Assembly (NCBI GenBank): GCA_030682495.1
Contig: JAUXOC010000071.1
Span: forward strand, 1 to 35,408
Direction of reading: 5' to 3'
Source: Alphaproteobacteria bacterium
GTDB lineage: Bacteria; Pseudomonadota; Alphaproteobacteria; Micavibrionales; UBA2020
DNA: 35,408 nucleotides
The translations under genes and the position numbers were made by a program. The notes under the pieces were generated by a model, which searched no databases, was not told the DNA's origin, and saw only the letters and a program-made list of their open reading frames with translations. Within the stretch, counting starts at the first letter, position 1. Each line of letters begins with the position of its first letter. Shown here in pieces: positions 17,048-19,119 of this stretch.

Positions 17048-18142
17048 ATGAGCAACGCAGACATTTCCGGTCGTGTTTTAAAAAAGCCCTCTCAGGGCGG
17101 CTTTACCCTTGTTGAACTCGCGATCGTCATGACGATTATCGGTCTTTTGATCGGCGGCATTCTTAAAGGGCAAGAAATGATTATAACGGCCCGCGTTAAC
17201 GCCACGGTTGCGCAAGTGAAGGCCTACGAGGCCGCCGTCACCACTTTCAAAGATGTCTACGATGCCCTTCCCGGTGATATGCCCCGTGCATCGGTCAAAC
17301 TGCCCGGATGCAATGCCAACTGCGACCCTGCTACGGCAACCGCCGGTAACGGTCAGGTCGGCGCGGTCGAATGGCTGGCCAGTTGGGATACGCAAACCGT
17401 TTCGCCCATGCCCTTGCCGCCCACCAGTGCCGCCGACGAAACCACCCTTTTCTGGCTGCATCTGCTGAAAGCCGACATGATCAGCGGCGTCACTGACGCG
17501 GCTTTGCATGGACGGACTGCTACGTGGGGGGAAACGCATGCGGTTTCAAAATTCAGCGGCGGCTTTGTCGCTGGTATGGGTAATGGCGCGTTTACGATAG
17601 CCTCGCTGAACATTCGCGGAGATACGCAATTCGCAGCGAACGACCGAGCCCTTCCACAACCTCTGCATAATCCAGGTCTCCACGACATACTTTTCCCGCC
17701 AGCCTACGCCGGCGGCGGTGGCGGTGGCGGTGGCGGCGGTGGCGGTGGCGGTGGGCCTTTCGCAGGTCCCGGTTGCCCTGGCGGCGGCGCTGGTCCCGGC
17801 GCAGGCGCGGGCTGCGGTGTTGGCGGCGGCGGCGGCGGCGGCGGCGGCGGTGGCGGTGGCGGCGGCGGAGCAGCGACAGTAGGGCCCAGCGGCCTGATCG
17901 TTGTTATCATGCAAATGCCGGATTCAAGCGGAATTAACGATCTCAGCGTTGCTGGCCAACAACCGCTCACCCCCAGCATGGCCGCAAAAATCGACAGCAA
18001 AATGGATGATGGCTTTCCGCATTCCGGTTCCGTCTACGCCTATGGCGGCGTCAACAGTTGCTTCATATCGGCAGCGGCACTCCGTTACAACGAAAGCATC
18101 ACATCCCGTGACTGCGGACTTGTCTTCCGGATACAAAAATAA
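17048..18142 (+). CDS. Type IV prepilin-like protein with two polyglycine tracts
   Basis: Exported pilin-like or pseudopilin protein. The N-terminus has a short basic leader ending QGG, then FTLVELAIVMTIIGLLIGGIL, the prepilin-peptidase motif G|FTLVE with the conserved Glu+5 and assembly helix. After the helix the globular part holds the LPGDM segment, a Cys pair (GCNANC), SAADETTLFWLHLLKADMI, and at the end a second Cys pair (NSCF and RDCGLVF). These are shared with the next gene. Between them lie Gly tracts of 15 (residues 222-236) and 16 (259-274) with a Gly/Pro/Ala/Cys linker. The ATG at 17048 is chosen; an in-frame TTG at 17024 would lengthen the leader by 8. No pilus assembly genes are in view. 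Confidence 0.88.
   Translation: MSNADISGRVLKKPSQGGFTLVELAIVMTIIGLLIGGILKGQEMIITARVNATVAQVKAYEAAVTTFKDVYDALPGDMPRASVKLPGCNANCDPATATAGNGQVGAVEWLASWDTQTVSPMPLPPTSAADETTLFWLHLLKADMISGVTDAALHGRTATWGETHAVSKFSGGFVAGMGNGAFTIASLNIRGDTQFAANDRALPQPLHNPGLHDILFPPAYAGGGGGGGGGGGGGGGPFAGPGCPGGGAGPGAGAGCGVGGGGGGGGGGGGGGGGAATVGPSGLIVVIMQMPDSSGINDLSVAGQQPLTPSMAAKIDSKMDDGFPHSGSVYAYGGVNSCFISAAALRYNESITSRDCGLVFRIQK
17711..17869 (+). repeat. GGC/GGT triplet microsatellites encoding polyglycine
   Basis: Two runs of glycine codons inside the first prepilin gene: 15 codons at 17711-17755 and 16 at 17822-17869, the latter starting with nine uninterrupted GGC. Between them is a Gly/Pro/Ala/Cys stretch. Triplet slippage would change length without shifting frame. 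The antisense strand reads as polyproline/polyalanine frames, which are shadows. Confidence 0.9.
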
Positions 18143-18252
18143 CCTTTAAAAACTACTTGCCTCTGACAACCAAAGCTTAACCTTTCTGGTGCAGAATATA
18201 ATAACACTTTGGTCAAATCAAACCCACAGGCCACTCCGGCCCGCGAGGTCAG

Positions 18253-19119
18253 GTGAGAATAAACGTCTATACATCTGCGCAGGCCGCATCCCGTTCGGCA
18301 AATCGGGGCTTTACGTTGGTCGAACTGGCGATTGTTATGACGGTGATCGGTATCGTCGTCGGGTCGATCATCAAGGGGCAGGAGATGATAAAGAACGCGC
18401 GCGCCACCGCGACCATCGCACAGATGCAGGCCTATCAGACCGCCGTGATCGGCTTCCGTGATGCCTATAAGGCCTTGCCCGGCGATATGCGCAATGCACA
18501 AAGCCGCATTCCCAACTGTACGGCCAATTGTGCGCCGCATCCCGACAACAGCAACGACAATATTATTGGCAGACCGGATTGGAGCGATGACTGGAACGCG
18601 CAAGCGGGCATGACCGTCAACCTGCCTGCCGCCAGCGCAGCGGATGAAACCGTTTTGTTCTGGGCGCATTTGACACTCAGCGATATGATCGGCGGTGTGA
18701 ACAATGCGGCGATCCGCAGCGGCAACGAACTTGTGGCCTGGACACATACGCATCCGGCTTCTCCGATTGGCGGCGGCTTTGTCGTGGGGTTTGTCAATGG
18801 CCAGCCTCTGCCCGGCGATCCGCGCAGCGTTGATCCGGTGAACCCGCTTTCTCTGGGGCCGCGAGGGCTTGTCTTTATGATCCTCAATTCCCCCACTTCC
18901 GGCACGTCCGCGCAGTTATCGCAAGGGTCTTATCAGGTCATGTCCGTCACCATGGCGGCGCTGATCGACGGAAAAATCGATGACGGTTATCCGCATACAG
19001 GCCGCGTTCGCGGATATGGCCTCACCGATGTCTGTTTTGGCGGCGACGAAGCCAACCCCCACTACGCCGCCGGATCCGGCATGCAGGATTGCGGGATTAT
19101 TTTTGAAATGGCGCAGTAA
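18253..19119 (+). CDS. Type IV prepilin-like protein, paralogue without polyglycine
   Basis: 288 residues. The leader ends at NRG, then FTLVELAIVMTVIGIVVGSII (cleavage G|FTLVE, Glu+5). The globular part parallels the preceding gene: LPGDM, IPNCTANC, LPAASAADETVLFWAHLTLSDMIGG, HTHPAS-GGGFVVGF, GPRGLVFMIL, KIDDGYPHTGRVRGYG and MQDCGIIFEMAQ. Where the neighbour has polyglycine it has an ordinary loop of about 20 residues (LPGDPRSVDPVNPLSLGP). Start GTG with GAGG 5 nt upstream. The 110-bp gap after the first gene has no obvious terminator, so co-transcription is likely. The four shared Cys suggest two disulfides. Confidence 0.88.
   Translation: MRINVYTSAQAASRSANRGFTLVELAIVMTVIGIVVGSIIKGQEMIKNARATATIAQMQAYQTAVIGFRDAYKALPGDMRNAQSRIPNCTANCAPHPDNSNDNIIGRPDWSDDWNAQAGMTVNLPAASAADETVLFWAHLTLSDMIGGVNNAAIRSGNELVAWTHTHPASPIGGGFVVGFVNGQPLPGDPRSVDPVNPLSLGPRGLVFMILNSPTSGTSAQLSQGSYQVMSVTMAALIDGKIDDGYPHTGRVRGYGLTDVCFGGDEANPHYAAGSGMQDCGIIFEMAQ

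Follow-up and report, generated by a model that had tools for sequence, protein, structure and literature searches.

The window, a stretch of 35,408 nucleotides that makes up an entire contig (C2) of a 2.5-Mb genome (G000) with an estimated completeness of 99%, encodes two co-directional prepilins, P0001 and P0002, in adjoining open reading frames (Table 1). Both proteins contain the segment GFTLVELAIV and scored above the curated cut-off of the N_methyl profile PF07963 (29.9 bits vs 21.2). Identity between the two was 48% across the first 176 residues and 37% across the last 88, confirming that they are paralogous, as a sequence-only reading of the window had proposed. The four Cys residues that this reading described as shared were indeed common to both proteins, but two additional Cys residues in the core of the P0001 insert had been overlooked; P0001 has six in total because the insert contributes a CX12C pair. 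Besides the leader models, profile searches of P0001 and P0002, ectodomain included, yielded no Pfam or NCBIfam family above its cut-off, and a sequence search of the PDB returned leader or linker-like matches only. AlphaFold2 models of the two proteins, computed from alignments of five rows, reached pLDDT values of 36 and 37 and a pTM of 0.28, too low to be informative. A search for a regulatory motif shared upstream of the window pair found none. The window also contains a perfect 26-bp tandem duplication just 3' of P0002 (19150-19204) and a 48-bp tandem repeat of 3.8 copies with 94% matches (10804-10984).

Table 1. Coordinates of the prepilin pair in the window, and positions of breaks in the major pilin genes of related genomes
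Feature	Position	Strand	Basis
P0001, prepilin with Gly-rich insert, 364 aa	17048..18142	+	ORF, PF07963 match, orthologues in G001 and G002
P0001, end of prepilin leader and hydrophobic N-terminal helix	17090..17164	+	PF07963; GFTLVELAIV, Glu at +5
P0001, first tract, 15 Gly codons	17711..17755	+	codon reading
P0001, core PFAGPGCPGGGAGPGAGAGCGV, carrying the two extra Cys	17756..17821	+	sequence, motif search, codon comparison
P0001, second tract, 16 Gly codons, opening with (GGC)9	17822..17869	+	codon reading, repeat search
P0002, partner prepilin without the insert, 288 aa, GTG start	18253..19119	+	PF07963; orthologues in G001 and G002
Major pilin breaks, L081-L084	G006, both ends of C5 and starts of C1 and C2		
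Major pilin break, L091	G014, end of C153		
Major pilin break, L090	G002, C221		

The insert of P0001 comprises about 53 residues (17711-17869) arranged as tract, core, and tract. The earlier claim that tracts of 15 and 16 Gly residues occupy the site of a loop in P0002 was exact in both counts; the P0002 loop has 18 residues and lies between GGGFVVGF and GLVFMI. About 40 more extra residues precede the first Gly tract in the P0001 sequence. The strands predicted to bracket the insert were residues 173-179 and 281-287, in a model of very low confidence (pLDDT 36). GGC and GGT accounted for 39 of the 41 Gly codons of the insert, with a visible GGCGGT period and an uninterrupted (GGC)9 run. The core, flanked by the two tracts, follows the consensus GPGCPGxGxGPGxGAGCGxGG, of which CPGxGxGPGxGxGC is the Cys-capped part. 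The densest 30-residue stretch held 19-24 Gly residues in pilins with such an insert (hereafter Gly-pilins) vs at most 12 in ordinary members of the family. Across ~620 kb of sequence, a figure that includes overlapping loci, all runs of at least seven Gly in open reading frames of at least 100 aa fell in these pilins, with the exception of one spurious frame.

The pair recurred at one and the same locus in all three genomes of genus g1 (G000, G001, and G002), and in G001 and G002 it sits between the genes for ribosomal protein L13 and an S51 peptidase. The Gly block of these two genomes consists of (Gly-Asn)n and mixed Gly/Asn tracts around the core GPGCPGQGNGPGQGAGCGLGG; the description of the tracts as GGC/GGT microsatellites therefore applies to P0001 but not to the first tract of the sister species, which is (Gly-Asn)n and uses other codons. 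In genus g19 (G033, G035, and G036), which belongs to a second family of the order, a Gly-block prepilin carries its insert at the matching site. The g19 gene is located within a type IV pilus machinery locus, directly 3' of a gene for an AraC-type regulator, and precedes the major pilin gene in G033 and G035. The core in G035, which is MAG SBHI01, 'Alphaproteobacteria bacterium M3014', is GNGCPGGGAGPGQGAGCGLGG and is nearly the same as that of g1. The Gly-pilin of G036 is cut off by a contig end within the Gly tract, and that of G033 has a frameshift immediately before a ten-Gly tract without the Cys core; the reading frame is intact in G000, G001, G002, and G035.

The insert site was identical in all Gly-pilins, and the block was missing from the other aligned members of the family. 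Polyglycine at this position thus recurs in the orthologues and in the second family. Since a Gly tract stands at the insert site in separate assemblies of six species, an assembly artefact was ruled out. A partner pilin gene adjoins the Gly-pilin gene in G000, G001, G002, G033, and G035; this second gene is the major pilin in g19 vs the divergent paralogue P0002 in g1, so that the pairs are not strictly equivalent. A separate pilin of genome G008 (L016 194-1183, contig C166) has a short Gly/Asn-rich loop of the form Cys-X11-Cys near the insert site, GQNCGNGNNAGNNGACRG, which is possibly a reduced form of the Gly module.

The back-translated core pattern CPGxGxGPGxGxGCG matched four of the 142 genomes of the order, once in each and always in these pilins, and the reversed control pattern gave no match in the same 142 genomes. 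Among 385 genomes drawn evenly from the class, the core motif matched the window's own genome only (0/384 others), and no match was obtained among viruses in IMG/VR. The wider ectodomain family was detected in 120 of the 142 genomes of the order and sparsely in the rest of the class (nine such genomes among 190 searched). The 2.0-Mb genome G027 contained 31 matches to this family, and seven of its prepilins from the family form a tandem array on contig C168 (L085 3213-8695). Relatives of the ectodomain without a prepilin leader, whose N terminus is instead a conventional signal or membrane segment, were found at four loci (L051 3013-3915, L088, L089, and L092). A literature search for type IV pilins carrying polyglycine or a Gly-rich insert found nothing relevant, which is weak evidence of absence, and a narrow search on pili of these uncultured alphaproteobacteria found no study.

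Insert alignments between G000 and G035, G001 and G035, and G000 and G001 exceeded 2000 of 2000 shuffles, the G000-G035 alignment beating all 2000 shuffles of either kind; for G002 and G035, 24 of 2000 shuffles reached the observed score, and Gly-rich similarity is easily overrated. In a maximum-likelihood tree computed without the insert columns, the g19 Gly-pilins were sister to the major pilins of g19 itself, and the g1 Gly-pilins grouped with P0002. A single clade of Gly-pilins was rejected by the AU test, likewise without the insert columns (p-AU 0.0047). Judged from these alignments and trees, either the block may have moved between pilins, or the scaffolds may have been overwritten by gene conversion, or the block may have arisen twice. 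Two origins appear least likely because the register of Cys and Pro residues is shared, and, as an alternative to module transfer, the scaffold may have been converted towards the local major pilin. A portable, disulphide-capped Gly module that is swapped among pilin scaffolds, with its core kept and its tracts acting as an in-frame length dial for stand-off, is a tentative reading that we consider rather doubtful.

Between G001 and G002, all 21 core residues were identical, with 12 synonymous codon changes (dN 0, dS 1.8), and the flanks gave a dN of 0.09 and a dS of ~1.2. Between G000 and G035, the core was 86% identical and the flanks 48%. By these codon and residue comparisons, the core between the tracts is the part kept by selection, and the purifying selection acting on it is strong. 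This constraint weighs against the view that the insert has no function and arose by neutral expansion of a GC-rich trinucleotide in a duplicate pilin undergoing decay, as do the intact frame in G000, G001, G002, and G035 and the presence of a matching core at the identical site in a second pilin lineage. Moreover, the three indels that distinguish G001 from G002 (21, 3, and 3 nt) all keep the frame and all fall within the insert, the rest of the gene having none; the claim that tract length changes in frame was thereby borne out. We consider neutral expansion unlikely, although the GGC/GGT arrays, the differences in tract length and composition among species, the frameshift just ahead of the tract in the G033 copy, and the membership of the P0001 gene in a set of several pilin paralogues all speak for it.

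The insert had also been called hypervariable-looking. Tract length does differ between species, but only three in-frame indels were seen at a flank dS of ~1.2, with one genome per species compared, which is not a rapid rate. A contingency locus, in which slippage of the Gly tracts lengthens or shortens the spacer in frame within one population and thereby varies or tunes the pilin on display (the antigenic variation raised in the sequence-only reading), would be favoured by the unbroken (GGC)9 run with its GGCGGT period and by the restriction of the G001/G002 length differences to in-frame changes in the insert. At the pace observed, with tracts broken by synonymous and Asn codons, we regard such a locus as improbable; furthermore, its repeat units are multiples of three and the G001/G002 indels are in frame, which provides no on/off switching of the frame.

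It is highly improbable that the insert folds as a compact polyglycine-II bundle that itself binds a surface. Gly recurs at every second position of the core, not at every third, and the pure Gly tracts lack side chains for binding; no match to a solved polyglycine-II protein was obtained among PDB sequences, which gave linker-like matches in composition only. The attraction of this fold lies in the very high Gly content together with Pro and Cys and in the precedent of gp38 of T2-type phages, a Gly-rich receptor-binding tip built from a polyglycine-II sandwich and hypervariable loops (PMC12892980).

The sequence-only reading had stated that no assembly genes adjoin the pair, which is true within the window, and that the machinery must lie elsewhere, which was also correct. 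The genome G000 encodes six N_methyl proteins, namely P0001, P0002, and four on contig C45. The latter contig encodes a secretin, two PilT/PilU-family ATPases, a prepilin peptidase, a TPR protein, an ABC-type ATPase, a GspF/PilC platform protein, and an MshE-domain ATPase for assembly (extension), followed by an AraC-type regulator, a 275-aa pilin, and three large prepilins. Profile searches matched PF06750 and PF01478, PF00437 (three times), PF00482, and PF00263 on C45. TIGR02519 (MshL) was the best model for the secretin, at 193 bits and under its cut-off of 250 bits; the MshEN domain of the ATPase was above its cut-off, and two proteins exceeded that of TIGR01420 (PilT/PilU family). On these profile matches, C45 is a type IVa pilus locus whose layout appears MSHA-like. 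Position and size mark the 275-aa pilin as the probable major pilin. The suggestion that the window pair represents an undescribed system did not hold: because the g19 Gly-pilin lies inside a type IVa pilus locus, the orphan window pair is tied to the type IVa pilus, and an independent secretion or assembly system was ruled out.

One of the C45 prepilins, of 526 aa (L007 11611-13191, minus strand), contains a SUEL domain (PF02140; 38.9 bits vs a cut-off of 31.4), a lectin domain that binds D-galactosides and L-rhamnose, and has an orthologue with 81% identity in G001 (C145). In two families, four to five copies of the motif ACRAAATGAGAA precede the major pilin gene (L007 15710-15960; L050 4102-4300), in opposite orientation relative to it. 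These repeats are possibly a regulator array, and no close match to them was found upstream of the window pair. The major pilin gene is interrupted by a contig end or an N-run in three genomes (G006, G014, and G002), pointing to pilin genes that are duplicated or vary between strains.

We consider it moderately likely that P0001 is an accessory type IVa (MSHA-like) pilin that displays a Gly module of variable length, probably capped by a disulphide. As in other members of its family, P0001 would be cut by a prepilin peptidase and taken into the fibre by its N-terminal helix, assembly being presumably performed by the type IVa machinery encoded on the other contig, C45, and P0002 would be its neighbouring partner pilin. 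Type IV pilins polymerise via the N-terminal helix, and their globular domains present edges and loops to the outside. The Gly module is predicted to lie between adjacent strands of the pilin sheet and would therefore probably be displayed, by analogy with ComZ of Thermus (see below). The two Cys residues of the core would most likely form a disulphide, and the Gly or Gly/Asn tracts may be spacers, flexible or extended, that keep the core clear of the surface or tip of the fibre. Because P0001 keeps Glu5, nothing points to a place at the extreme tip, judging from what is known of tip pseudopilins. Contact with another cell or surface is the likely use of the displayed core, and adhesion would be the most natural use of the block; one C45 prepilin carries the SUEL lectin domain. 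For P0001 we infer fibre incorporation, disulphide formation, exposure, and adhesion. Conserved at one site in pilins of two families and equipped with a Cys pair, the Gly-rich module would lend itself to spacing or display on a dynamic fibre, and the CX12C core with its tracts offers a short, testable unit for how pili tune reach and contact.

Among known systems, gp38 resembles P0001 in its Gly-rich motifs and is a surface-binding tip protein, but it is a phage protein without a prepilin leader, and homology to P0001 was not found. A parallel in arrangement is ComZ of Thermus thermophilus, in which a domain is inserted into the pilin beta-sheet and which pairs with the neighbouring pilin PilA2; ComZ is a DNA-binding protein whose insert is a rigid beta-solenoid of ~380 residues, and it has been argued to occupy the pilus tip (PMC6561018). 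As in P0001/P0002, a pilin-like subunit with an extra inserted domain is encoded next to a partner pilin gene, whereas P0001 has, in place of a beta-solenoid, a Gly-rich stretch of ~53 residues around a Cys-capped core, and no sequence relation was seen. The window pair differs from MSHA-type systems in that it is unlinked to the pilus locus in genus g1, that the C45 locus holds two PilT-family ATPases, and that, leader models aside, its pilins match no Pfam or NCBIfam family above cut-off. It shares with MSHA-type and other type IVa pili the N_methyl leader and, on C45, a locus that appears to combine an MshL-like secretin and an MshE-type ATPase with a platform protein and a prepilin peptidase. 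P0001 and P0002 are probably a variant of type IVa pilus subunits and not a new system.
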